From: Bacteroidales bacterium
GTDB lineage: Bacteria > Bacteroidota > Bacteroidia > Bacteroidales > JAADGE01
Assembly: GCA_021648725.1 (NCBI GenBank)
Contig: JAKISF010000026.1
Coordinates: 1 to 52,499, forward strand
Direction of reading: 5' to 3'
DNA length: 52,499 nt
The notes beneath the pieces were generated by a model. The model was not told the origin of the DNA, searched no databases, and saw only the letters and a program-made list of their open reading frames with translations. Position numbers and translations under genes: made by a program. Positions 1-19,878 of the stretch are shown in pieces (the first letter of the stretch is position 1; every line of letters begins with the position of its first letter).

Positions 1-70
1 GTTTATCAAATAAAATCAGCGATATTAATAGCTTGTATAATTTGTTCTAAATTAACAATTTACAATCAAA

Positions 71-244
71 CTAACAACTTTTTTTCATTATTTCGAGCAT
101 TTTTTTAACTTCGTAAAGTAGAATTAAGGCATTGTTTAGGTATGATGAACTGATATTAATAAATTCTTCTCTGACATCTTCAGTTGAGAAACATGGTGTA
201 TCATTTTGAGAGAATCTCTTAATTATTTCCCATTCTAACTTCAT
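71..244 (-). CDS. Small 57-aa protein, possibly a truncated winged-helix N-terminal piece
   Basis: I translated this ATG-to-TAG frame by hand; it gives 57 residues. The sequence has a helix-turn-helix-like pattern (STEDVREEF, then SSYLNNALILLYE), loosely like the N-terminal DNA-binding part of AbiEi-type antitoxins. The remainder of such a protein is absent, because the frame ends in KKSC soon after the putative recognition helix. It lies downstream of, and on the same strand as, the 75-residue protein at 419-646, 174 bp away, so the two could be co-transcribed. It may be a genuine small regulator or the broken start of a larger gene. Family assignment is a guess. Confidence 0.35.
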   Translation of the reverse strand: MKLEWEIIKRFSQNDTPCFSTEDVREEFINISSSYLNNALILLYEVKKMLEIMKKSC

Positions 245-302
245 TGGTTGTTGTTTATATCCTTTAAATCACAAATAATAGTATTATAAAGATACAAACA
301 GC

Positions 303-331
303 AACCACAAACAAAACTGAAATTTGTGGTT
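303..331. repeat. Hairpin with 9-bp perfect stem
   Basis: AACCACAAA at 303-311 pairs with TTTGTGGTT at 323-331. It lies just downstream of the minus-strand gene at 419-646. There is no clear T-run after it on the minus strand, so it is at best a weak terminator or mRNA end structure. Confidence 0.4.
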
Positions 332-418
332 TAACAGAGTTTTTTGATTTATTTTAAAGTAAACTATTCTTTATTAAATAACCCAAGAATACTGTTTTTT
401 TCTCTCAAAATACTCAGT

Positions 419-646
419 CTAAGCGTTTTTAATTATATCTCTGTTCCTTCCGACAAAATCATCAAGTATAATATCAAATACATTTTTCATCGTATCATCT
501 GAAATTTTAGAAATATGCTCAACAATATCTTTTGACCTCTGCGAGATATAAACGCTTGTGCCGTTTCTGTTGTTCTGCCCTTGTTTCTTGTCATAATAGT
601 TTTCAAATAACTCATTCAAATTCTTAAATTTCTTACTGTTTTCCAT
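419..646 (-). CDS. Small ribbon-helix-helix-like protein (DUF3408-like)
   Basis: A 75-residue protein with a charged N-terminal third (KFKNLNELFENYY), a basic linker and a C-terminal half reading TSVYISQRSKDIVEHISKI followed by a helix ending in FDIILDDFVGR. This strand-helix-helix layout resembles the C-terminal ribbon-helix-helix portion of DUF3408/TraB-like proteins from Bacteroidota conjugative elements, which are usually longer. A DNA-binding role is inferred. It starts with ATG, and a 24-bp perfect palindrome lies about 80 bp upstream (726-749), a plausible operator. The surrounding kilobase is poor in genes, consistent with a decayed mobile or accessory region. Confidence 0.5.
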   Translation of the reverse strand: MENSKKFKNLNELFENYYDKKQGQNNRNGTSVYISQRSKDIVEHISKISDDTMKNVFDIILDDFVGRNRDIIKNA

Positions 647-725
647 AATTGTTTTTATTAATGAATAATATAGATTTACACTTTTAAAGTCATATCCTAA
701 TGTTCTTTCCTAAGCTTCATAGTCA

Positions 726-749
726 GTATAAAGTATTAATACTTTATAC
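726..749. promoter_or_regulatory. 24-bp perfect palindrome, candidate operator
   Basis: GTATAAAGTATT at 726-737 is followed immediately by its reverse complement at 738-749, with no spacer. It sits upstream of the ribbon-helix-helix-like gene (start at 646). Perfect uninterrupted palindromes of this size are typical dimer-binding sites. The link to that protein is inference. Confidence 0.45.
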
Positions 750-796
750 ATCAGAACATATCAATAAGTAATACAATATTGCAATAGTTAAGTACG

Positions 797-818
797 TATT
801 CTTATACACATAAGAATA
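797..818. repeat. Inverted repeat, 9-bp arms with a 4-bp spacer
   Basis: TATTCTTAT at 797-805 and ATAAGAATA at 810-818 are perfect inverted arms separated by ACAC. It lies 48 bp from the 726-749 palindrome but differs in sequence. It could be a second operator or a small hairpin. Confidence 0.35.
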
Positions 819-877
819 AATGTCCTAAATTCAAGTAATAAATGCAACTTTTTGTAGCGATAAAAATTGAGAAATAA

Positions 878-1102
878 TTATATATTCTTAGATTTTGTCT
901 GGTTCTGATTAAAATAATATCAGAAAGTTTTTCCTACTTCATTTTCCATGTTCTGCCTTGGTTTTGGCTACCGAGTTTTGTTTTTTATTTCATTGGCGAT
1001 AAAAATGACAGCCAGAATGAAAAAATTAAAGTAGCGGCAGAAACTTCTTCTGACATTGAACCATTAATTGTTGATTCTTTTAAAACTGATAGTATTAATT
1101 AA
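878..1102 (+). pseudogene. Open frame without ATG, possible C-terminal remnant of a membrane protein
   Basis: A frame open from just after a stop at 875-877 to TAA at 1100-1102, with no ATG. It reads as a hydrophobic aromatic stretch (FHVLPWFWLPSFVFYFIG) followed by a polar acidic tail (KNDSQNEKIKVAAE...). A membrane segment followed by a soluble tail is protein-like, and its lack of a start suggests the 3' end of a gene whose front has been lost. No family is recognised. It could also be chance in AT-rich DNA. Confidence 0.25.
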
Positions 1103-1458
1103 AGTTTAAAAAAAGTGGAGAATTTGAAAAAAAAACGAACCTCTTTTTTATTCGTAAAATTCAGATACAGAATGTAAAGCAATAACCATAAACTATTAAA
1201 ATTATTTTTTGTGAAAATCTTAAATCTTACAAGCAGCAATAAAAAACAGTAAAACGCTTAACAAATAAATTTTGAACATTGAAATCGAGCTCTTGCCCTT
1301 TAAAATCTCAGCATTTTGCATTTCACAAATTTGCTCTTTTTTATTTTTTTTATAAATTCATGTTTAAATATATTAGTTTTCCTTAATTTTAAACATATTG
1401 AATTTTGAGGATGTTAACGAAAGTTATTATCTAAAACTTATACATTAACTATATTCAC
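1103..1458. other. AT-rich stretch ahead of the TPR-CHAT gene
   Basis: No plus-strand gene or convincing TAnnTTTG promoter is visible in these 356 bp. The only protein-like signal is the tiny minus-strand frame at 1220-1321. The promoter of the TPR-CHAT gene must lie here or read in from further upstream, but I could not place it. Confidence 0.4.
1220..1321 (-). CDS. Possible 33-aa lipoprotein-like peptide or gene remnant
   Basis: An ATG-to-TAA frame of 34 codons. From an internal ATG at 1279 it reads MFKIYLLSVLLFFIAACKI, which looks like a lipoprotein signal with a lipobox (IAAC) and almost no mature protein. It could be a small lysis-type lipopeptide, the broken start of a lipoprotein gene, or chance. 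The surrounding DNA is otherwise empty. Confidence 0.2.
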   Translation of the reverse strand: MQNAEILKGKSSISMFKIYLLSVLLFFIAACKI

Positions 1459-4400
1459 ATGAAACATATTCTTTCAATTTTAATCGTTCTGATTATTTTC
1501 AACAATGCTTTTTCTCAAACAGTCAATCAAGATACTCTTCGAGCAAGAGAATATTTAAGAACATCTGAAAAATTCAAAGAAGAATCAAAGTTCGAAAATT
1601 CATTGGAATACCTGAAAAAAGCTGAAAAAATCTATTCAACTTACAACCTCAATAAGGCTTTGTTAGAATGTGAATTAAAAAAAAGCGATATTTTTATTCG
1701 TAAAGGCGATTTAAATCAGGCGCTTGAAATTTTAAAAACAGGAAAACAAAAAGCTTTAAGTTTATCCGGTGAAAATTCGGTATTATATGCAGATTTTTGC
1801 GAAAAAACAGGTTTGGTTTATCTTTATGTAAAAAAGTATTCGGATGCTAAAAAATTATGGATAAAAACTTTAGTAATCCGAAAAAAAATATACGACAGTA
1901 ACCATATCAAACTTTCAGATTCATATAATAATTTAGGTGTATTATATTCTCAAACAGGTGATTATCTCAGAAGCCTTAAACTCCACCAAAATGCATTAAA
2001 AATCAGAGAAGAAATACTTCCCGAAGATGATTTAAAGATTGCTGCTTCGCTAATGAATATAGGCAGAGCATATTCTAAAATTGAAAATCCTGATTTAACT
2101 TTAATATATTTTTTAAAGTCATTGAAAATTAAAAAAAAGAAGCTTGATTCGTTTAATCCCGAACTTGCATCTTTATATAATATTACCGGAGATGTTTACA
2201 AAAAATTAGAAGAATATAATCTGTCAATAAAAAACTATAAAAATGCACTTTTAATAAAACAGAATAATAATGGTGAAAACCATCCCGAAACAGCCGGAAT
2301 ATATGCTAATTTGGGAGATGTGTATAATTTAACCGGAAATTACAATAAAGCATCGGAATACAATGAAAAAGCATTGCGAATATTTAAAGGAAAATACGGA
2401 GAAAACCACTGGACAGTTGCAAAAATATTAATAAATATCGGCAGTGTTTATTTAAATAAGGATGATATTAAAAAAGCGATTGAGAATTTCAATAATTCAT
2501 TAGAAATAAGCAAAAAACTATATAAAGTTTGGAATTTAAAAACAGCACAACAGTACACGAAAATAGGGTTGATTCTAAATAAGAAAAATGAAAATATTGC
2601 TGCAGAAAACTATTTTAATAATGCATTAAAAATCCAACAAAATGTTTTAAAAAGTGATAATCATCCCGAAATTGCTGAAACGTATCTTAATATCGGAAAT
2701 ACATATAAAAATAACAAAGAGTATTATGCGGCTTTGGAAAATTATAACAAAAGTTTAGCGATAAGACTAAAAATATCCGGGAACAAACATCCGGAAACAG
2801 CTCGTATTTATAAATTAACGGCATCGGTTTATAAAGCAAAAAAAGAATATACGGCAGAACTTAAATATTTACAAAAAGCATTAATCAGCAATATTGAAAA
2901 TTTTGATTCTCAGGATATTACAACTAACTCTGCTTTTAATAAATCAAATTTCTGTTTTAATCAAAATATAGTTTTAGAAACTCTTAATATGAAAGCCGGT
3001 GCCTTTTGGAATTTGTATTTAAGAACTAATAATACGGATAATTTAAAAGAAGCATTTAAGGTGTATAAACTTTCTGATTTAATTATCGAAAGAATAAAAA
3101 AAACAGTTTTAAAAAAAGAAGATAAAAAATATTTAGCAGAAAATATATCGAAAGTATATGAGAAAGCTGCCGTATTATGTTTACAGTTATATAAAAAGAC
3201 AAATGAAAATAAATATTTAAATAAATCCTTTTATTATTCAGAAAAAAACAAACAAGGTGTATTACTTTCTATACCCGAGGCAACAGATTTTGCAGACGTT
3301 TTGAATTCAGTCTTAAATGTTGAAACTGATTTATTAGCAGATATTACTTATTTCAGAAAAAAAGTTACTGAAAATCCCGGCGACACAAAAATCAGAACAA
3401 AATTGCTTACATTATACAAAGAACATAATTCTTTTATCTCAAACTTAAAAAATAATCATAAAGAATATTACGAATTAAAATACAAGCCTGTTTTTGTAAC
3501 AGCAGAAGATATTCAAAACCTGATAAATGACAGTACGCTTGTATTGCATTATTTTTATCCTGAAACTTCGAAGTATATGTATGTTTACATGATTGAAAAA
3601 GATAAAACAAGCATACGTTTTATAAAAAATATTGACGCTTTTAGTGATAAAATTATAAGTTTCAGAAAACATCTTATTTCTGATGATGAAAGCAGTGTAA
3701 AAGCCTATGCCCGAGAAGGATATTCATTGTACAAAGATTTACTTCCGAATATTTCAGAAAATGATGGTTCAACAAAACAGTTGATAATTATTCCTGACGG
3801 AAATTTAGGAATGATTCCTTTTGAGTCGCTGTTAACAGAAGAATATTTCGGAAGTTGGAATCAATTTAGTGATTATCCTTACCTGATTAAAAAATATGCT
3901 GTTTCTTATTCATTGTCGGCAAACGAATTGCAAAAAAACTTATATGAAAATTATCAGAGAAAAATTAATCTGTCAATTAATGATTCTGTTGATTCTGTTG
4001 ATTCAATTTACATGGATGATTGGGTCGGCATTGCCCCTGTTTTTGATGATATGAGCATAAACAAAACATCCGGCAAAACTCGTGATATTCTGAAAAACAC
4101 ACAAAAAACATTTCAAGATAACACCCAAACACATTTTTTGAGCAATAATAACATTTCTTATCTTCCGGAAAGTGAGAATGAAATAACAGCAATATACAAC
4201 GCGTTTCAAAATTCAGAAAAAATGCCTGAAACGGATTTACGTGAAGAAGCTGACGAGTTTTTTATTAAATCAATTGATTCGGAAGAATTTAAAATTATTC
4301 ATATTGCTTCCCACGGATTTATTAATTCCGAAAAACCTGAATTTTCAGGTATTATATTGGCAAACAGCAACACTGATGAAAATGACGGAATTTTATTAAT

Positions 4401-4734
4401 GAATGAAATATTTGACATGAAACTGAATTCCGATTTAATTGTATTATCAGCTTTTGAAACAGGAATAAAAAAGTTTCGAAGAGGAGAAGGTATTTTAGCA
4501 CTTACAAGAGCATTGTTGTATACAGGAACAAAAAATATTGTTATTTCTCTTTGGCAGGTTTCTGACAAATCAACCGTAAAGTTGATGGTTAATTTTTATA
4601 AGGATATTCTGAATAAACATGATAATCCGCCCGGCTATAATCATTCATTGCAAACAGCAAAATTAAAACTCATAAACGAAGGGGAATATGCACATCCCTT
4701 TTATTGGAGTCCGTTTATTTTAATAGGAAATTAA
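1459..4734 (+). CDS. Exported TPR-CHAT protein lacking the catalytic cysteine
   Basis: A 1091-residue protein. Residues 1-19 form a signal peptide (hydrophobic run ending AFSQ). Residues of about 25-480 are tandem tetratricopeptide repeats of the kinesin-light-chain type, with recurring NLG/NIG and HPE motifs. A linking helical region follows, and the C-terminal third is a CHAT domain (caspase-like fold). The family histidine is present in HIASHG (H952), as are EGILALTRALLYTG and SLWQVSD. The motif normally written LSACETG is LSAFETG here, so the nucleophile position 999 is Phe (codon TTT at 4453-4455, one base from TGT). By family knowledge this should abolish peptidase activity, leaving a binding or scaffold role. 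The signal peptide places it outside the cytoplasm. The convergent neighbour is a zinc-ribbon/propeller protein. Confidence 0.85.
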   Translation: MKHILSILIVLIIFNNAFSQTVNQDTLRAREYLRTSEKFKEESKFENSLEYLKKAEKIYSTYNLNKALLECELKKSDIFIRKGDLNQALEILKTGKQKALSLSGENSVLYADFCEKTGLVYLYVKKYSDAKKLWIKTLVIRKKIYDSNHIKLSDSYNNLGVLYSQTGDYLRSLKLHQNALKIREEILPEDDLKIAASLMNIGRAYSKIENPDLTLIYFLKSLKIKKKKLDSFNPELASLYNITGDVYKKLEEYNLSIKNYKNALLIKQNNNGENHPETAGIYANLGDVYNLTGNYNKASEYNEKALRIFKGKYGENHWTVAKILINIGSVYLNKDDIKKAIENFNNSLEISKKLYKVWNLKTAQQYTKIGLILNKKNENIAAENYFNNALKIQQNVLKSDNHPEIAETYLNIGNTYKNNKEYYAALENYNKSLAIRLKISGNKHPETARIYKLTASVYKAKKEYTAELKYLQKALISNIENFDSQDITTNSAFNKSNFCFNQNIVLETLNMKAGAFWNLYLRTNNTDNLKEAFKVYKLSDLIIERIKKTVLKKEDKKYLAENISKVYEKAAVLCLQLYKKTNENKYLNKSFYYSEKNKQGVLLSIPEATDFADVLNSVLNVETDLLADITYFRKKVTENPGDTKIRTKLLTLYKEHNSFISNLKNNHKEYYELKYKPVFVTAEDIQNLINDSTLVLHYFYPETSKYMYVYMIEKDKTSIRFIKNIDAFSDKIISFRKHLISDDESSVKAYAREGYSLYKDLLPNISENDGSTKQLIIIPDGNLGMIPFESLLTEEYFGSWNQFSDYPYLIKKYAVSYSLSANELQKNLYENYQRKINLSINDSVDSVDSIYMDDWVGIAPVFDDMSINKTSGKTRDILKNTQKTFQDNTQTHFLSNNNISYLPESENEITAIYNAFQNSEKMPETDLREEADEFFIKSIDSEEFKIIHIASHGFINSEKPEFSGIILANSNTDENDGILLMNEIFDMKLNSDLIVLSAFETGIKKFRRGEGILALTRALLYTGTKNIVISLWQVSDKSTVKLMVNFYKDILNKHDNPPGYNHSLQTAKLKLINEGEYAHPFYWSPFILIGN

Positions 4735-4762
4735 AATCTGTTATTTCAAAATCTGAATGGTT

Positions 4763-6436
4763 TTACAAGTAATCATCTTTTGACTTTTTGGCTTCTTCAA
4801 GCTCTTCGAGTAAATCTTCGTCTTCATTTATTGTACCCGGACTACGCCAAACCTGAGAACCGTCAGATGCTAAAATACGGAAATTATTAAAATCCTGATC
4901 ACATAAATGCATTTCTCCTGTTTCTCCTACTGCCATTCTTTCCATGTCTGTTCCTAAGGGGAAATTGTTGATATCATTTAAAGGGCCTGCCAGTATTTTA
5001 AAAGAGCCGTCAGGGCTGATTTTACCCACATGTGAATAATTTTCATTACCAATATCATTTTTATGATCAAATAGAACATATATTGTTCCGTCTTTTGTAA
5101 CACCGCAATCTTGTATCTTATCAACACCTTTTAGCTTAGGTTTAACAATTTCAAGCAGTTTTCCTTTACGGTCGAAGCGTGCAAACTTCCCTTTTTCTCT
5201 GTCCAAAACATAAAGTGTATTATCAGGACCACCCATTAACCAAGCTTCATCAGGGAACATTGTCGGTTGATCTGCCAACTGCTTGAAACTAACTTCATCT
5301 CTAAATTTTAATTTTAAATCTTCATAGCCTTCCCAAAGAGGAATACGATTCCCGTCAATATCAAAACGTCTTGGAGTATATTCATAAAACTCATAATTCT
5401 CTTCAAGGTCTAACCATCTTCTGTAGATAATTACACTTCCGTCTGTGCAAATTGCAATTCCCTCATGATCATAAGCTGTAATTAAGTTTTCATTCTCTTC
5501 TTCATTTTCAATTTTGGATATCAAAGCTCCTGTTACAGAATTAAAAATAAATACAAGGTGTTCATCTCTATCAATTACCCAAATCCTGTTGTTGTGTTTA
5601 TCATATAATAATCGAGCATAATCGGATATATCAAACTTCTTAGTTTGCCAGCGTAAGCCCCCGGACTTGTCCGAAAGACCAAGTCGTCCGGCACTATCTT
5701 GTTCCCACAGCAAAATCGTATTACCTGAGGGGAGTGCTTCCAAGTCAATAAAATCATCAATATCGTAAGGCAGTAAAGCAACATTTTCGCCTATATCCAG
5801 AATAATAAACCAAGGTCTTGCAACAGTTACCGGATTAAGTCTTGACCATATCTCATCGGGTACAAGTAAATCGTTTCCGCAAAATTGGCAATTTACTTTA
5901 CGGGAAGATCCGTCAAGAGGCAACTGCCCTCCGCAATGGTAACACCAAATACAGATACCTTCTTTAGTGTCTTCGATTTTAGTTCCTGAATCACCGGGAG
6001 ATTCTTCCCCAATGAGAAATTTGACATTCGGGATTACTTTATTAAACCATTCCGGAGGTTTTCGCACACTCCAAATTTTTCCGCATACGGTACAATTAAA
6101 TTCATTGTGTCCGGTTTCAGCAACTTCAAGAACATCTTTTAAAGGCCAAAGTGTACCGCAGCCATCTGCACATCTGGGAATCATGTTTCCGAATATCATA
6201 CTGAAATTGCCGAAGCCTCCTATAATACCATTGGAAAATGAGTCAGTTTCCGGTTTAAAAGTAGTTGCTTCAACCAAATTTTCTGTTACAAGTTTTTGCC
6301 AGAGTTCCACCGGAGCAAAGGATACTTCTCCGCAAGTATTACATAATATTTTCTCTGCTGCTTTGTTAATCGGTAAAGTATCACCACAATTTGAACAATC
6401 AATTGAAAACTTTAAACTTATGCTTTTTATGGACAT
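4763..6436 (-). CDS. Triple zinc-ribbon and beta-propeller protein of unknown function
   Basis: A 557-residue protein with no signal peptide, so probably cytoplasmic. The N-terminal ~200 residues carry three Cys-pair modules: C14xxC17 with C32xxC35; a CADGCG motif followed by CTVCGK; and CYHCGG followed by CQFCGN. The first and third modules are followed by similar acidic-aromatic segments (VELWQKL and DEIWSRL), so one probably arose by duplication. The remainder consists of repeated strands with WVIDRD-, YVLDRE- and IYVLFD-like motifs, suggesting an NHL/SMP-30-like beta-propeller. It ends with an acidic, lysine-rich tail. It is convergent with the TPR-CHAT gene, 28 bp apart. I recognise no named family; a protein-binding role is inferred. 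Confidence 0.7.
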   Translation of the reverse strand: MSIKSISLKFSIDCSNCGDTLPINKAAEKILCNTCGEVSFAPVELWQKLVTENLVEATTFKPETDSFSNGIIGGFGNFSMIFGNMIPRCADGCGTLWPLKDVLEVAETGHNEFNCTVCGKIWSVRKPPEWFNKVIPNVKFLIGEESPGDSGTKIEDTKEGICIWCYHCGGQLPLDGSSRKVNCQFCGNDLLVPDEIWSRLNPVTVARPWFIILDIGENVALLPYDIDDFIDLEALPSGNTILLWEQDSAGRLGLSDKSGGLRWQTKKFDISDYARLLYDKHNNRIWVIDRDEHLVFIFNSVTGALISKIENEEENENLITAYDHEGIAICTDGSVIIYRRWLDLEENYEFYEYTPRRFDIDGNRIPLWEGYEDLKLKFRDEVSFKQLADQPTMFPDEAWLMGGPDNTLYVLDREKGKFARFDRKGKLLEIVKPKLKGVDKIQDCGVTKDGTIYVLFDHKNDIGNENYSHVGKISPDGSFKILAGPLNDINNFPLGTDMERMAVGETGEMHLCDQDFNNFRILASDGSQVWRSPGTINEDEDLLEELEEAKKSKDDYL

Positions 6437-12860: not shown

Positions 12861-15800
12861 TTATATCTTAATTCCTGCAATTAGTATATCATCAATTTGG
12901 GCGGAGTTTGCTTTCCATTCAATAAAAGTATTTTCAAGTATTTGTTTTTGTTCTTTCATTGTTTTTTCTGAAATTGATAATAACAAATCTCTGAATTGCT
13001 TTATTTTAAATTTTTCTCCTGTTTTTCCATTAAATTGATCTACATATCCATCGGAAAACATATATAAGATGTCATTTTTTTGCAATTGAAACTGTTCATT
13101 TTTAAATGGTATTTCTTTAATAAATATTCCGACAGGATTAATCGTAGGGTTGAAAATTGTAAGTTTGCCGTTTCTTATTAAATACAAAGGATTATTTGCT
13201 CCTGCATATTGTAATTCATTAGTTTTTTTGTTTACGGAGCAAATAACCATATCTATACCTTCTGTTTGGTCGTCTAATCCGCCTTTTTGTTTCAGCGAAA
13301 CTTTTATTTCTTTTCTCAGTTCTTCAAGTACTTGATTTGCTTGTGTAATATTTTCTTTTCGAATTATTTCGTTAAGTAAAGACATTCCCAACATACTTAC
13401 AAGAGCTCCGGGAATTCCGTGTCCGGTACAATCTGCAACAACTGTAACGATATGTGCTTCATTATTAAAAACAAATTCTCTTGCCCAATAAAAATCTCCG
13501 CTAACAATGTCTCTGGGGTGGTTAATTATAAAAAAGTCAGAAAAATTTCTTTCGAATATTTTCATTGTCGGCAACATTGCATTTTGAATTTTCCCGGCAT
13601 AATCAATACTGTCGGTAATTTTTGTATTTGTTTGAAGAAGTTCTTCTTTTTGCTTATTTATTTCTACTGTTCTTTCAAGAACTTTTATTTCAAGTTTACT
13701 TTTTGCCTTTTTTAGTGACTTCATTCTTAGGTCTATTGCAATGTACAGAATTATTAACAGCAAGAATAAAGATAAAGTATAAAACCAAGTTTGTCTCCAG
13801 TAGGGAGGTTTAATAGTAAATTTAAATGAAACAGGTTGAGCATTCCAAAGGTCGTCATTGTTTGCCGAAATAACTTGAAATTCGTATTTGCCGGGTGTAA
13901 TATTTGTAAATACAGCTTTTTTATCGTATGTTTCAGGCGACCATATTTCGTTTTGCCCTAAAAGTCGATATTTATACTTAACTTTTTGCGGGTTTGAAAA
14001 GCAAAGCCCTATAAAGTTAAATGTCAGATGGTTAAGCTTGTGCGGGAGTGTTAATTTTATCGGAATATTATTATAGTTAACTGAATCTGAATATTCAAAC
14101 CAATCGACATCTTTAAAAAATAATTGAATATCGGAAAGGTATGTTTTGTTTTCAACAATATTCATTTTATCTAAATCTTCATTATACCTGACTGCTCCGT
14201 TCACGGTTCCGAACCATATATTACCTTTTGCATCTTCTGCTGCTCCGTTTATATTTGTTTCAACCCCTATAAACCCGTCATCTTTTGTGTAGTTTTTAAT
14301 GTCTGTTAAAATATTGTTTTCGTCAAAAATAATTTTATCAACACCTTTTTCACTCCCGCACCATAAATTTCCTTTTGAATCAGGAAAAAGGAAATAAATA
14401 TTGTTTGAATTTAATCCGTCTTCTTTTTGATATTGCTCAAAATGATATTTTTTATTTTCAGTTTTAATAATTTTATATATTCCTGATGAACCCGTACCTA
14501 TCCATAATGTTCCTTTTCTGTTGACAATAGATCTTATAAAATCGAGTTCAATATTTGTATTAGTTTTAACAACTGTTTTTCCGTCATATTTTAATAACCC
14601 GCTATTTATTGTGCCGAACCAAATATTATTATCATCATCTTCGCAAATTGTCATTACAGTTTTTGCAGTAAAACCTTGTTTTGAGCCAAAGCGTGTAAGG
14701 TTTCTTCCGTCATACTTATAAACACCCTCATTATTTGTTCCGAACCAAAGATTTTCTTTGCTGTCTTTAAAAATTGTAAGAACACGCAGATATTCCGGAC
14801 TGTCTTTTGTTTTTATTTGAGTGAATTTTTTCCCGTTAAATTTAATAATACCGTTATTCCCGGATGCTAACCAGAAGTTGCCGTTTTTATCGGTTTCAAT
14901 ATCAAAAAAATAATCATCAATACTTCCTTTTTGTTTATTGAATTGTGTATAGTTTTCCCCGTTAAATTTAACCAAACCGAAGCCGTATGTGCAAAACCAT
15001 ATATTATTGTCTTTGTCGGGCAGAATTCCCATAACTATCTCATTATCAAATGAACTTATTTGGTCATAATGAATAAAAGGTGTTCCTGTATTTATCATTG
15101 TAACACCGTTTCTGCCTCCTATCCAAATATTTTTTTCGCTGTCTTCGTAAAGAGAAAGCACGACTGAATTTGTTAATCCGGAATTTACGGTTAGGTTATG
15201 GAAGAGGTTTTGAGAATAAAAGCCGCAACCTTTCTGTTCGGAAGAATACCACAGATTGTTTTCTGAATCAATAAGAAGTTTATTAATATTATTGTTTAAT
15301 AAACCGCTATTTGTATTAAAGTGCTTAATTTTATTGTCGAAGATTTTGTAAATCCCGTTATTTGTTGCAATCCACAGATTTGATTTCTTGTCTTCGATAA
15401 AGGAGTTAAAAGGAGTTTTTATTTTTTTTATATTAATTTTCGGCTTTTTAAATTTACCTTTATCATAAATGTAAATGTTTTTTTCTGTAAGTATCCAAAT
15501 TTCATTATTATTTCTCAGAATAATATCTCTCGGTTTTATGTCTTCAGATATTTTTTTTATTGTGTCATTACTTAAAATATTTGTTCCTTCGGTAGTAACA
15601 ATCAAAAGTTCTTCGGTAGGTAATTCAAATGTTTTATAAATTATGTTTGAAAATAAGCCGTCATTTTCGGTATATGTTTTAAATTTATTCTTTTTTAGTT
15701 CGGTTAATCCTTTTTTTGTTGAGAACCAAAATCGTTCTTTTGAGTCTTGAAGAATATGAATTACGAAGTTACTTTTTAAACCGTTATCTTTATTATAAAC

Positions 15801-16016
15801 AGTATAATCATATCCGTTAAATTTTACGGCACCGTTTTGTGTTGCAAACCACATAAATCCTTCATTATCTTGCATAATAAAATCGGCATTTGACTGAGGG
15901 AAACCTTTTTCAACGGTATAATTTGTAAAATTAAAAAGTTGGGCATAAGCATTTTTACCGCAAATATTTAAATAAATTATTGCGAGTAACGTGATGTATT
16001 TTAATGCATTATGCAT
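12861..16016 (-). CDS. Propeller-Y_Y_Y-SpoIIE phosphatase transmembrane sensor
   Basis: 1051 residues. A signal peptide (1-25) is followed by some 12 or more Reg_prop repeats (patterns such as DNEGFMWFATQNGAVKFNG, DSKENLWFGTNNEGVYKYDG) that should build a double periplasmic beta-propeller. A Y_Y_Y domain (about 665-745, ending ITPGKYEFQVISANND) precedes one membrane helix (about 755-778), a coiled coil (ERTVEINKQKEELL) and a cytoplasmic PP2C/SpoIIE phosphatase. The phosphatase motifs are VADCTGHGIPGALVSM, EGIDMVICSV and YMFSDGYVDQF, with metal-binding aspartates present. There is no histidine kinase or receiver domain, unlike hybrid two-component propeller sensors. By analogy with RsbU it could dephosphorylate an anti-sigma antagonist, but none is encoded nearby. 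Paralogue of 16546-19878. Confidence 0.88.
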   Translation of the reverse strand: MHNALKYITLLAIIYLNICGKNAYAQLFNFTNYTVEKGFPQSNADFIMQDNEGFMWFATQNGAVKFNGYDYTVYNKDNGLKSNFVIHILQDSKERFWFSTKKGLTELKKNKFKTYTENDGLFSNIIYKTFELPTEELLIVTTEGTNILSNDTIKKISEDIKPRDIILRNNNEIWILTEKNIYIYDKGKFKKPKINIKKIKTPFNSFIEDKKSNLWIATNNGIYKIFDNKIKHFNTNSGLLNNNINKLLIDSENNLWYSSEQKGCGFYSQNLFHNLTVNSGLTNSVVLSLYEDSEKNIWIGGRNGVTMINTGTPFIHYDQISSFDNEIVMGILPDKDNNIWFCTYGFGLVKFNGENYTQFNKQKGSIDDYFFDIETDKNGNFWLASGNNGIIKFNGKKFTQIKTKDSPEYLRVLTIFKDSKENLWFGTNNEGVYKYDGRNLTRFGSKQGFTAKTVMTICEDDDNNIWFGTINSGLLKYDGKTVVKTNTNIELDFIRSIVNRKGTLWIGTGSSGIYKIIKTENKKYHFEQYQKEDGLNSNNIYFLFPDSKGNLWCGSEKGVDKIIFDENNILTDIKNYTKDDGFIGVETNINGAAEDAKGNIWFGTVNGAVRYNEDLDKMNIVENKTYLSDIQLFFKDVDWFEYSDSVNYNNIPIKLTLPHKLNHLTFNFIGLCFSNPQKVKYKYRLLGQNEIWSPETYDKKAVFTNITPGKYEFQVISANNDDLWNAQPVSFKFTIKPPYWRQTWFYTLSLFLLLIILYIAIDLRMKSLKKAKSKLEIKVLERTVEINKQKEELLQTNTKITDSIDYAGKIQNAMLPTMKIFERNFSDFFIINHPRDIVSGDFYWAREFVFNNEAHIVTVVADCTGHGIPGALVSMLGMSLLNEIIRKENITQANQVLEELRKEIKVSLKQKGGLDDQTEGIDMVICSVNKKTNELQYAGANNPLYLIRNGKLTIFNPTINPVGIFIKEIPFKNEQFQLQKNDILYMFSDGYVDQFNGKTGEKFKIKQFRDLLLSISEKTMKEQKQILENTFIEWKANSAQIDDILIAGIKI

Positions 16017-16036
16017 AAATATATTGTTAAGTTCTT

Positions 16037-16486
16037 TTAAGAAAGAAGTTCTTTAACTTTTGCTGCAATTAATTTTCCCTCTGTTTTTCCTGCAAGTTCT
16101 TTTGATGCAATACCCATGACTTTACCCATGTCTTTCATTGACGTTGCACCTAAATTGTCGATAATTATTTTTATTGAGCTTGAAAGCTCTTCTTCAGACA
16201 TTTGTTCGGGCAGGTAGGGTTGAATATATGAAACTTCTGCCATTTCAGTTTTGTATAAATCTTCTCTGTTTTGAGATTTATATATTTCAGCTGCATCTTT
16301 TCTTTGTTTTACCATCTTTTGAAGCAGTGTTATTCCTTCTTCTTCAGAAATTTTATCATTACCGCTTCCGGAGGTCTTTATTAAAAGCAATTGTGCTTTT
16401 ATTGCTCTTAATGCGGCAAGTTTTTCTTTTTCTTTTGATTTCATTGCCGAGATTATATCAGCATTTATTTTTTCAAACAGTTCCAT
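16037..16486 (-). CDS. GatB/YqeY domain protein
   Basis: 149 residues covering the whole YqeY family. It begins with a helical region (INADIISAMKSKEKEKLAALRAIKAQL), contains QRKDAAEIYKSQNREDL and YLPEQMSEEEL, and ends with MKDMGKVMGIASKELAGKTEGKLIA. The family resembles the C-terminal tRNA-binding domain of the GatB amidotransferase subunit, but its freestanding function is not settled. It sits between two paralogous sensor genes on the same strand, 20 bp before the downstream one, so it probably shares a transcript with that gene. This is a housekeeping-type gene in an unusual position. Confidence 0.9.
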   Translation of the reverse strand: MELFEKINADIISAMKSKEKEKLAALRAIKAQLLLIKTSGSGNDKISEEEGITLLQKMVKQRKDAAEIYKSQNREDLYKTEMAEVSYIQPYLPEQMSEEELSSSIKIIIDNLGATSMKDMGKVMGIASKELAGKTEGKLIAAKVKELLS

Positions 16487-16545
16487 TTTATTTTTTTATT
16501 ATTGTTGTAAATTTACATATTTTTTATTCAAAAACAATTTTCAAT

Positions 16546-19500
16546 TTAAAGTCTTACACCTATTATAACAATATCATCAATTTGAGGTTCGTTTCCTTTC
16601 CAGTCTTCCATTGTTTTTTCTAATATTTTAAGTTGTCCTTTCATAGGTTTGAGATTAATTTCTTCCAATAATCTTTTTAATCGTCCCTTCATAAATTTTT
16701 TATTTTTCGGTCCGCCGAATTGATCGGGATATCCGTCGGAAAACATATAAATTGAGTCTCCTTTCTGAATTTTAAAAGATTGAACAGAAAACGGTTCCAT
16801 AATATCGTATAATGCAACCGGCATCCTGTCTGCTTTAATTTCTGATATTTTGCCGTTTTGCAAATAAAATAATGAATTATATGCACCTGAAAATTCTATA
16901 ATATTTTTCTTAGTATCAATTACGCATAAAGACATATCCATTCCGTCTTTTGATTCTGTTTCAAAGCCTTTAGGATGAAGGGCGTTTATAACGTTGTTTC
17001 TGAGGCGGTTTAATATTTCTCCCGGGTTTGTTATGCCTTTCTCATTTACAATTTTATTTAAGAAGCTGATTCCCAGCATACTCATAAAAGCACCGGGAAC
17101 ACCGTGTCCTGTGCAATCAACTGTCGTAATTATTATTTTTGAACCTTTTTTTCCTACCCAGTAAAAATCTCCGCTTACTATATCTCTGGGTTTAAATAAA
17201 ATAAAATGCTCAGGAATATTTTCGGAAATATATTCATTTGTCGGCAAAGCAGCCGTTTGAATTTTTTTTGCATATAATATGCTGTCGGTTATTTCTTGTT
17301 TTTGTTCTGAAATAAAATCTTTTTGAATTGATAATTCATCTCTTTGAGACCTTATTTCTTCGTTTTGTTGTCTTATTTCAAGAGTTCTTCTTTTAACTTC
17401 TGTTTCAAGCTCTTCATTTCGTTTTTTTATTGTTCTCATTCTTATTTTAAAGAATAAAATTATAGAGGAGATTAAAAGTGCAGTTAATAATATTTTAAAC
17501 CATAATGTTTGCCAAAAAGCGGGTTTAATTATTATTGTCAGGCTTGCTCCTTTTTCATTCCAAACATCATCGTTATTTGACCCTATTACTTTAAAGGTAT
17601 AATTGCCCGGTTTTATGTTTGTGTATTTTGCAAATCGTCTGAACCCTGCATCATTCCAGTCATCGTCATCACCTATAAGTATATATTTGTATTTGTTTTT
17701 TTGCGGGAATACAAAATCAAGTGCAACGAAATCGAAAGAAATATCGTTTTGATAATGTTTTAGTACAATTTGCTTTTTTAAACTTATTATTGTATCTGTT
17801 TTAATGTATTGGTTCGAGATTTGAAATCCGGTAATTACGATAGGGGGTTTGTGCGGATTATCTTTTATTTCTTTGGGATAAAAAGCATTAAATCCGTCAA
17901 TTCCTCCGAAAAGAATCTCTCCGTCTTTTTTTTTATAAAATGAACCTGCTAAAAATTCATTGCTTTGAAGACCGTCACCCATATCAAAGTTCTTTATTTC
18001 TCCTGTTTTTTTATGCATTCTGCTTATACCGTTGTTTGTGCTCATCCAAAGGAACTCACCGTCTTCAACAATTCCGAGAATTACATTGTTAGGCAGTTCG
18101 CAATTTTCTCTTGTAAATGTTTTAAATGTTTCTTTTACAGGATTAAATTTATTTAGCCCGCCTTTTGTTCCTATCCATAAAGTACCCTCGTTGTCCTCAC
18201 AAATTGAATAAATTCTGTTATTGCTTATTGAATTAGGATTGTTTTCATCGTTAATATAAACTGTAAAAGTTTCATTTTCGGGGTTAAATTTGTTTAAACC
18301 TAAAAATGTACCTATCCAAATGTTTCCTTTTTTGTCTTGAAGAATTGAGGTTACTAAGTTACTGCTTATTGATTTGTTACTGTCTTCGGAATGCATATAA
18401 TGTTTAAATGTTCCTTTGTCGGGATTAAAAAGATTTAAACCGCCTCCGAATGTTCCTGCCCAAAGTTGATTGTTATTGTCTTCAAAGATTTTCCAAACTC
18501 TGTTGCTTGATATTGAGTTTGTATCTTTTGATTCTTTATAACAAGTAAAAGTACCTGTTTTTTTATTGAAAAGATTTAGCCCGCCTCCGTCAGTAGCAAC
18601 CCAAAAGCGATTTTTGTTGTCTTCAAGCATTGATCTTATATGATTGTTGCTTATTGAGTTATTTTGTTTAGGGTTATGTTTGTAATGAGAGAATTTATTA
18701 TTTTTTTTATTCCATTTGTTGAGCCCTCCTTCAACAGTGCCGACCCATATATTTTCATTTTTGTCAACGTAAAAACTTCTTACTTGTGATGCACTGAGGC
18801 TGTTTTCATTGTACGGGTTGTGTCTGAATACATCTATATCTTCAGCAGCTCTGTTCCACTTGTTAACACCTCCTAAAGAAGTACCTACCCATAAAATATT
18901 TGCATTATCTTTATATATAGAAATAATGCTGTTTGTAGATAAGCTGTGTTTGTTAACAGGTTCATGTTTATAAATAAAATAATTATGCGTTTTTTTATTA
19001 AAACTTATCAAACCTCTTGTTTTTGTCCCTAACCAAAATATATCATTTTCATCATTAATAAAAGTTGTAATATTTGCTTTTATTTTTACATCTTTTTTTG
19101 AGTATAGGTTTATCTTATGTTCTGTAAGTTTGTCATTATTTGTGTTATAGCTGAAAAGCCCTATTGAAGTTGCTATCCATATAATACCGTTTTCGAAACA
19201 GATGTCATTTATTCTCACATTAGAAATTTCAGGGTGTTTTAATGTTTTTATTTTATTGTTTTTTGTGTTAAGAAAACTAACCCCTTTTTGTGTTCCTATC
19301 CATAAATTATCCGAGGAGTCAAATTCTAAACACAAAACTGTGTCCGACGGAATAGAACTATTATTTTTTGAATGAGAGAAATATGTAAAATTATTAATGT
19401 TTTGATTAAACTTATTTAAGCCTTTGTTTGTAGCAATCCATAAAATCTCATTATCCCCTGTAATATCATTAATACTGTTGTTGCTTATTGAATTCTCTTT

Positions 19501-19878
19501 GTATTGTGAAGATTTAAAAGTTTCAAAGTTATCTTTCAATCTGTTGTATTTAGATATCCCGTTAGATTTTGTACCTATCCATAATGTAGGGTTTGCTGTA
19601 TCTTTTGTTTCAAATAAAGTTGTTACAATATTGTCGGGAATTGTATTTTTTTTTGTTTTACTGTTCCAATATACTTTGAAATTATAACCGTCAAACTTAT
19701 TTAAACCATCTAAAGTTGCAAACCACATAAAGCCTTGGCTGTCTTGAATAATACTTAAAACTGAACTTTGAGACATTCCGTTTTCAACTGAAAGTTTTTC
19801 AAACTTAATAATAGGCTTTTGAGTATAAGAAATGAAAGCAGGCAGCAGAAGTATTATTAAAATAATAGTTTTTTTCAT
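16546..19878 (-). CDS. Second propeller-Y_Y_Y-SpoIIE phosphatase sensor
   Basis: 1110 residues with the same order as its neighbour. A signal peptide (to about residue 19) precedes roughly 14 propeller repeats. Their phrasing is of the NSISSNRVWKIFEDNNNQLW type, alternating with GGGLNLFNPDKGTFKHY. A Y_Y_Y domain (ending IKPGNYTFKVIGSNND), a membrane helix (WFKILLTALLISSIILFF), a long coiled coil (EVKRRTLEIRQQNEEI) and a SpoIIE phosphatase follow. The phosphatase shows TTVDCTGHGVPGAFMSM, DGMDMSLCVI and YMFSDGYPDQF. The longer repeats differ from the neighbour's, suggesting a different ligand with similar output. A promoter candidate lies at 19903-19933. The GHG and SDG motifs indicate an active phosphatase; the target is unknown. 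Confidence 0.88.
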   Translation of the reverse strand: MKKTIILIILLLPAFISYTQKPIIKFEKLSVENGMSQSSVLSIIQDSQGFMWFATLDGLNKFDGYNFKVYWNSKTKKNTIPDNIVTTLFETKDTANPTLWIGTKSNGISKYNRLKDNFETFKSSQYKENSISNNSINDITGDNEILWIATNKGLNKFNQNINNFTYFSHSKNNSSIPSDTVLCLEFDSSDNLWIGTQKGVSFLNTKNNKIKTLKHPEISNVRINDICFENGIIWIATSIGLFSYNTNNDKLTEHKINLYSKKDVKIKANITTFINDENDIFWLGTKTRGLISFNKKTHNYFIYKHEPVNKHSLSTNSIISIYKDNANILWVGTSLGGVNKWNRAAEDIDVFRHNPYNENSLSASQVRSFYVDKNENIWVGTVEGGLNKWNKKNNKFSHYKHNPKQNNSISNNHIRSMLEDNKNRFWVATDGGGLNLFNKKTGTFTCYKESKDTNSISSNRVWKIFEDNNNQLWAGTFGGGLNLFNPDKGTFKHYMHSEDSNKSISSNLVTSILQDKKGNIWIGTFLGLNKFNPENETFTVYINDENNPNSISNNRIYSICEDNEGTLWIGTKGGLNKFNPVKETFKTFTRENCELPNNVILGIVEDGEFLWMSTNNGISRMHKKTGEIKNFDMGDGLQSNEFLAGSFYKKKDGEILFGGIDGFNAFYPKEIKDNPHKPPIVITGFQISNQYIKTDTIISLKKQIVLKHYQNDISFDFVALDFVFPQKNKYKYILIGDDDDWNDAGFRRFAKYTNIKPGNYTFKVIGSNNDDVWNEKGASLTIIIKPAFWQTLWFKILLTALLISSIILFFKIRMRTIKKRNEELETEVKRRTLEIRQQNEEIRSQRDELSIQKDFISEQKQEITDSILYAKKIQTAALPTNEYISENIPEHFILFKPRDIVSGDFYWVGKKGSKIIITTVDCTGHGVPGAFMSMLGISFLNKIVNEKGITNPGEILNRLRNNVINALHPKGFETESKDGMDMSLCVIDTKKNIIEFSGAYNSLFYLQNGKISEIKADRMPVALYDIMEPFSVQSFKIQKGDSIYMFSDGYPDQFGGPKNKKFMKGRLKRLLEEINLKPMKGQLKILEKTMEDWKGNEPQIDDIVIIGVRL

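Follow-up and report, generated by a model that had tools for sequence, protein, structure and literature searches.

A TPR-CHAT protein with phenylalanine at the nucleophile position

We analyzed a 52,499-nucleotide stretch of DNA from a Bacteroidales bacterium (contig JAKISF010000026.1, positions 1–52,499; hereafter, the window), in which a gene at 1459–4734 on the forward strand encodes a 1091-amino-acid TPR-CHAT protein in a single unbroken frame. Our results indicate that this protein has quite probably lost its peptidase activity and has been kept by selection as a non-catalytic binding protein. Two substitutions at the active site, Phe999 and Lys1004, are common to its closest orthologue (in genome G009), the active site is eroded in the orthologue clade, and the CHAT domain is under purifying selection; taken together, these observations point to a selected pseudo-protease.

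The catalytic histidine, His952 (codon CAC, 4312–4314), lies within an intact HIASHG motif, and the nucleophile motif reads LSAFETG, with Phe999 (codon TTT, 4453–4455) at the position where the family has Cys. Both features had been noted in a first-pass annotation made from the sequence alone and were confirmed here. That annotation had also taken the rest of the site surroundings to be conserved, which did not hold: at position 1004 (4468–4470), all 62 catalytic homologues have Gly, but the window protein and G009 have Lys. Hence the His-Cys dyad of an active CHAT peptidase is incomplete, His952 being kept and Cys999 being replaced by Phe.

Pfam assigned CHAT and TPR families only to the window protein. 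The CHAT match (PF12770) covers residues 756–1091 (3724–4731) at 174.7 bits, against a curated cut-off of 24 (E 3.7e-51). The TPR superhelix spans about residues 24–480 (1528–2898), as judged by Pfam, a profile search and a structure comparison. Between them begins a first caspase-like half, about residues 693–860 (3535–4038), which we take as the counterpart of the pseudo-caspase CHAT1 of Csx29, its boundary being inferred from the strands of the model and from the Csx29 analogy. The proposal that the protein carries a signal peptide fared well as far as the appearance of its N-terminus goes, with the limit that this was judged by eye: MKHILSILIVLIIFNNAFS precedes Gln20, and F18-S19-Q20 is unchanged across the alignment of five orthologues. 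The window protein is thus probably exported via a Sec signal peptide (residues 1–19, 1459–1515, cleavage before Gln20).

The catalytic pocket is eroded in the orthologue clade

Near-full-length matches among the 14 genomes of this uncultivated Bacteroidales genus were found in G009 (70% identity), G005 (58%), G012 (54%) and G002 (53%), so that TPR-CHAT orthologues are present in five of the 14 genomes, the window genome included. A first scan of contigs gave no match. A scan with the five-row alignment recovered four loci in different metagenome-assembled genomes (JANTGL010000010.1, JAOZQB010000062.1, JAADGE010000037.1 and JAJRUH010000133.1), with the identities of the four known orthologues. 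The search for phage relatives returned one distant match, with 27.5% across 36% of the query. A CHAT tree of 69 rows placed all five orthologues in one clade (support 100/99), with the window protein beside G009 (100/95); a 16-row full-length tree concurred (clade 100/100, window plus G009 97/97).

At positions 952/997/998/999, the window protein reads H-S-A-F, G009 Y-P-Y-F, G005 H-S-T-C, and both G012 and G002 Y-P-Y-C. Phe999 thus occurs in two of the five orthologues, and Tyr952 in three (G009, G012 and G002), each time together with Pro997-Tyr998 in place of the Ser997-Ala998 of the window protein (4447–4452). The first-pass annotation had raised a single-base error (TGT to TTT) as an alternative, asking whether Phe is fixed in close homologues or whether this strain alone deviates from Cys. 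Neither extreme applies: Cys is found in the remaining three orthologues, two of which carry Tyr952, and G009 shares Phe999. The codons are indeed one base apart, as a sequencing or assembly error in an ordinary active TPR-CHAT protease would require. However, the same TTT codon is present in G009, a different genome whose protein is 70% identical, the two proteins also share Lys1004, and the clade lacks further invariant pocket residues; we regard such an error as very unlikely.

Loss of the dyad is rare elsewhere. His and Cys were both present in 112 of the 118 CHAT proteins in which both positions were visible (120 rows, with L023 and L094 set aside for want of one or both positions). The six without a full dyad are four clade members and two proteins from outside the clade, L017 (genome G014; Cys to Ser, LSASETG) and L106 (G015; both motifs gone). 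With relatives treated as independent, an incomplete dyad in four of five clade members versus two of 113 others gave a Fisher p of 9.6e-6. Among the rows are truncated copies of one gene (e.g. L050 and L063), and L146 contributes an additional match of 285 aa. The last loci to be added, 48 at order level (28 new plus 20, one of them repeating L012), were best-scoring matches, which favours intact sites, and the family-level sample comprised 61 matches in 21 genomes, most of them fetched.

Erosion extends beyond the dyad. In the 62 catalytic rows 88 columns are conserved; the window protein departs at 13 of them and the other clade members at 14, 20, 21 and 23. Positions invariant in the catalytic rows and altered in at least one clade member are 979, 997, 1004, 1010, 1011, 1036 and 1090, besides 952 and 999, which are included by construction. 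G005 keeps the dyad yet is without Gly1011, Asp1036 and Gly1090, three residues that do not vary across the 62 catalytic rows. A reading in which activity has changed rather than disappeared, with another nucleophile or a different chemistry, could point to the retention of Cys999 in three of the five orthologues, G012 and G002 keeping it beside Tyr952. Against it, the Phe of both the window protein and G009 is no nucleophile, and one member or another also lacks the invariant residues at 1004, 1010, 1011 and 1036, making a changed activity highly doubtful.

Two pocket configurations recur at positions 952/997/998, His-Ser-Ala/Thr and Tyr-Pro-Tyr, and their distribution on the tree needs either two parallel changes or one change plus reversals. 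Since the three positions change together, their co-variation suggests contact in the pocket rather than random decay. A short-tract transfer from G012/G002 was considered as the source of Tyr-Pro-Tyr in G009 and rejected, the intervening sequence being unlike that of G012/G002 (alignment, by eye); we prefer parallel change in G009, although this is not proved. The motif LPY[CF]ETG was not found to be spread more widely among CHAT proteins: a degenerate DNA pattern for it hit 11 of 393 order genomes (reversed control, 2 hits; G009 and G002 lay outside this sample), and among the 11 only the G012 hit fell in a CHAT protein.

The CHAT domain is under purifying selection

All five orthologues have full-length intact frames (1058–1091 aa), and the whole-protein ratio of nonsynonymous to synonymous substitution rates (dN/dS) was 0.16–0.27 across six orthologue pairs. 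Between the window protein and G009, both of which have Phe at position 999, CHAT dN/dS was 0.183 (bootstrap 0.116–0.264). The ratios were computed by the Nei-Gojobori method with a script and are rough for this pair, whose dS is near 1.1. Because both copies carry Phe, this divergence accumulated, by parsimony, without the nucleophile, and the low CHAT dN/dS over that time therefore means that the fold was selected without catalysis. A catalytic residue is thus lost while the fold is kept, and the CHAT dN/dS and the five intact frames indicate retention by selection rather than a pseudogene. In this respect the first-pass suggestion of a pseudo-protease was borne out, with the sharing of Phe999 by G009 and the degenerate active site of the clade adding to it.

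The opposite possibility, a decaying gene under relaxed constraint and without present function, draws on the long branches in the clade and on the comparison between G012 and G002, in which the orthologue pair had a CHAT dN/dS of 0.222 and two pairs of active paralogues had 0.076 and 0.055. Nevertheless, the frames are intact in all five species, the whole-protein ratios are low in all six pairs, the upper bootstrap bound for CHAT between the window protein and G009 is 0.264, and the gene was seemingly transferred and retained in its Phe form (see below). We consider decay unlikely.

The TPR part had the lowest dN/dS of the four bootstrapped regions (0.153 for window–G009, bootstrap 0.105–0.210, and 0.130 for G012–G002), with overlapping intervals. 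In the two active G012/G002 pairs, CHAT was as constrained as TPR or more so, whereas the active pair G005/G009 showed the opposite (CHAT 0.089, TPR 0.028, partial gene). It is therefore suggested, but not shown, that constraint in the clade has moved from CHAT to TPR.

The CHAT fold is predicted to be retained

An AlphaFold2 model of the window protein, built from 68 sequences, had a mean predicted local distance difference test score (pLDDT) of 87.7 and a predicted TM-score (pTM) of 0.78. The highest Z overall (32.6) was for the TPR part on LGN, and the profile search and structure comparison likened this part to the peptide-binding superhelices of LGN, OGT and kinesin light chain. Across TPR and CHAT together, the best matches were Csx29 chains (7y9x_B, Z 27.7, 499 residues, 6.8 Å), followed by the separase protease domain (5fby_A, Z 24.5, 322 residues, 3.6 Å); Foldseek likewise placed human separase on top, with a low TM-score. 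The CHAT domain is thus predicted to have a caspase/separase-type fold. A PDB sequence search with the C-terminal part returned no CHAT chain.

The catalytic loops appear to differ from those of an active relative. In the model of an active paralogue from the same genome (contig C12, pLDDT 90.9), strands 867–872 and 915–918 stop three residues before H875 and C921; in the window protein, the corresponding strands 944–954 and 993–1000 pass through both catalytic positions. On prediction alone, the loops would be drawn into the sheet and the cleft closed. The first-pass annotation had left it to modelling whether the pocket is retained; on these models the fold seems to be kept, and the pocket may not be.

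The gene probably arrived by horizontal transfer

In a tree of MgtE and QueA (13 of the 14 genomes; genes taken from the window's contig, G010 being left out as it had no MgtE match), the window genome grouped with G001, G003, G004, G008 and G013, and the remaining four genomes with an orthologue stood together in the opposite half (97/95). Approximately unbiased (AU) tests, made after the trees had been seen, rejected G000 and G009 as a pair in this tree (p 1.7e-47) and, in the TPR-CHAT tree, a clade of the four orthologues without the window protein (p 0.0049).

The location is also unshared. In G009, G005, G012 and G002 the gene lies at a shared locus whose neighbours we take, from the look of their sequences, to be DUF134, paaI, iorB, iorA and lipB; the protein read as DUF134 had no match in the window genome. 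In the window, the TPR-CHAT gene is flanked by a repeat at the contig start and by a gene unmatched in the 13 other genus genomes. G001, G003, G004 and G008 have retained the adjoining queA-DUF2027-mgtE-lnb block; these four genomes gave no match there to the TPR-CHAT gene or to the two genes on its left, a weak TPR match in G008 aside. Because the gene tree conflicts with the species tree and the location is unshared, the gene probably reached the lineage of the window genome horizontally. We infer that a G009-like lineage was the source of the Phe form, which the recipient then retained.

At the shared locus of G009 and G005, dS was 1.24 for the CHAT gene versus 0.27–0.66 for six flanking genes, which suggests allele replacement there too. 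Replacement at this locus is not general, since the CHAT gene of G012/G002 (dS 0.60) falls within the range of its flanks (0.25–0.61).

Possible roles of the pseudo-protease

The window protein may bind a polypeptide without cutting it, the exported TPR groove and CHAT surface together holding it uncut. The window genome encodes five CHAT proteins, of which the other four carry standard His and Cys motifs and, by eye, signal-peptide-like N-termini, so that these active paralogues would share a compartment with the window protein. It could then act as a decoy or dominant-negative partner of the four exported active TPR-CHAT paralogues of the same cell, much as cFLIP does for caspase-8. By analogy this is the most likely specific role, level with a scaffold that works independently of the paralogues, and each of the two is possible rather than probable.

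In the scaffold alternative, an envelope scaffold or peptide receptor would work through its TPR superhelix, CHAT serving as a structural cap. The likeness of the TPR part to peptide-binding superhelices and its low dN/dS are consistent with this, as is HetF, a CHAT-TPR protein for which FtsI binding, as a component of the divisome, has been reported (PMC8406250, available text). On the other hand, CHAT is likewise under purifying selection, and the repeated, linked pocket changes would be needless for a mere cap.

A more elaborate form of the decoy role would make the window protein a bacterial counterpart of cFLIP in the envelope. Under selection and able to move between genomes, this pseudo-protease would cap the exported active TPR-CHAT proteases, outcompete them, or else protect their substrate. 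Its active site would be blocked by either of two recurring solutions, Phe in place of the Cys or Tyr-Pro-Tyr about the His/Cys pair, and species would swap its alleles much as they might an immunity trait. In this complete form we think the reading rather unlikely.

Several points weigh against a selected, substrate-binding pseudo-protease or its supporting steps. Beyond the dyad the window protein is highly eroded, though not uniquely so: among the catalytic rows the median number of departing columns is 5.5 and the largest 20, and three of the 62 (at least 15 departures each) exceed its 13. As G005 retains His and Cys, the common ancestor of the clade may still have been catalytic. Residues 1003–1007 fall under a pLDDT of 50 and are not resolved in the model, and the loop difference may be model noise because the two predictions used different alignments. 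All 14 genus genomes have at least two CHAT matches, so that co-occurrence with active paralogues is uninformative on partnership. The contig may be chimeric or mis-joined between the TPR-CHAT gene and queA. Lastly, in the available part of PMC6426788, the authors doubt a role alongside active relatives for prokaryotic pseudo-orthocaspases because some cells have the pseudo form only.

Other features of the window

The repeat at 1–127 has copies 98–100% identical in 11 other contigs of the same genome, and in six of these the copy starts on the contig's first base or one base from it; it is probably a mobile-element end that broke the assembly. A 75-aa open reading frame at 419–646 (reverse strand) resembles, in our impression and without a family search, a small conjugative-element protein. 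At 823–889 lies a dispersed repeat of ~67 bases, with copies 90–96% identical in G008, G002 and G004, possibly a small non-coding mobile element. The convergent neighbour of the TPR-CHAT gene (4763–6436, reverse strand, 557 aa) had no Pfam match at 1e-5 and was found in one of the 14 genus genomes, that of the window; CxxC zinc-ribbon-like pairs were seen in its product by eye. Two large proteins with propeller (Reg_prop), Y_Y_Y and SpoIIE phosphatase domains (Pfam), encoded on the same strand at 12861–19878, are probably regulators of the sensor or anti-sigma type. Apparent internal stops in QueA of G009 and G005 precede the true start and are nothing odd. A promoter scan of 1–5000 gave 29 hits where 29.6 were expected by chance, Rfam gave no match at gathering scores, PADLOC returned a generic TPR model only, and Pfam found no vWA or MoxR protein among eight neighbours.

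Comparison with known systems

Pseudo-caspases, their His-to-Tyr changes and inactive bacterial caspase domains are already known. In the open-licence literature we found neither a TPR-CHAT pseudo-protease clade, with two linked pocket configurations and horizontal spread, nor a description of the function of exported Bacteroidales TPR-CHAT proteins. Here a single small clade shows the loss of the dyad, the selection that followed on the dead domain and a probable horizontal transfer, with active paralogues in the same cells as controls. The G005 orthologue, with both residues kept, offers a natural comparison that makes the reason why a dead caspase-fold protein is kept directly testable. The clade gives a hint, too, of a role other than proteolysis among exported Bacteroidales TPR-CHAT proteins.

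Separase has a protease-domain fold like that predicted for the window protein, which is without the dyad, and no functional relation between the two is known. In HetF, mutation of the putative active site is reported to cause loss of function (PMC8406250, in the text available). For the inactive caspase domains of vWA-MoxR conflict systems, decoy or dominant-negative action has been proposed (Kaur et al. 2020, PMC7159879, accessible portion); unlike these, the window gene, to judge from its neighbours, stands alone, and it seems to encode an exported product.

Pseudo-orthocaspases and Trypanosoma brucei TbMC4 share with the window protein a caspase fold without the His-Cys dyad. Among pseudo-orthocaspases, the excerpted text of PMC6426788 gives Tyr-Ser for His-Cys as the commonest variant. 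These are p20 proteins with both residues changed, to Tyr and Ser, whereas the window protein is a CHAT protein with His and Phe and so does not belong to the YS type. The clade also differs from them in carrying Tyr and/or Phe in differing combinations, with Pro-Tyr before the Cys position. As the same excerpts describe, cFLIP and TbMC4 are dead caspase relatives that act with active ones. cFLIP is a dead homologue that pairs with an active caspase; for the window protein such pairing is an analogy.

The closest likeness in architecture is to Csx29 of the type III-E CRISPR 'Craspase', which, like the window protein, has a TPR superhelix and then two caspase-like halves (in the window protein, according to its model), at 12% identity over the aligned part. 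The catalytic residues of Csx29 are His615 and Cys658 (PMC10028731, available sections), 43 residues apart, compared with 47 between positions 952 and 999 of the window protein, where the dyad is broken. Csx29 is active, works with Cas7-11 and binds its substrate Csx30 via CHAT2, whereas the window protein lacks the nucleophile and has a probable signal peptide. In the same sections, a dyad mutant of Csx29 abolishes cleavage and the authors state that substrate binding is not allosterically regulated; a CHAT domain can therefore hold a substrate without cutting it. As the first caspase-like half of Csx29 (CHAT1) is itself a pseudo-caspase, the window protein would, by analogy, have two pseudo-caspase halves.
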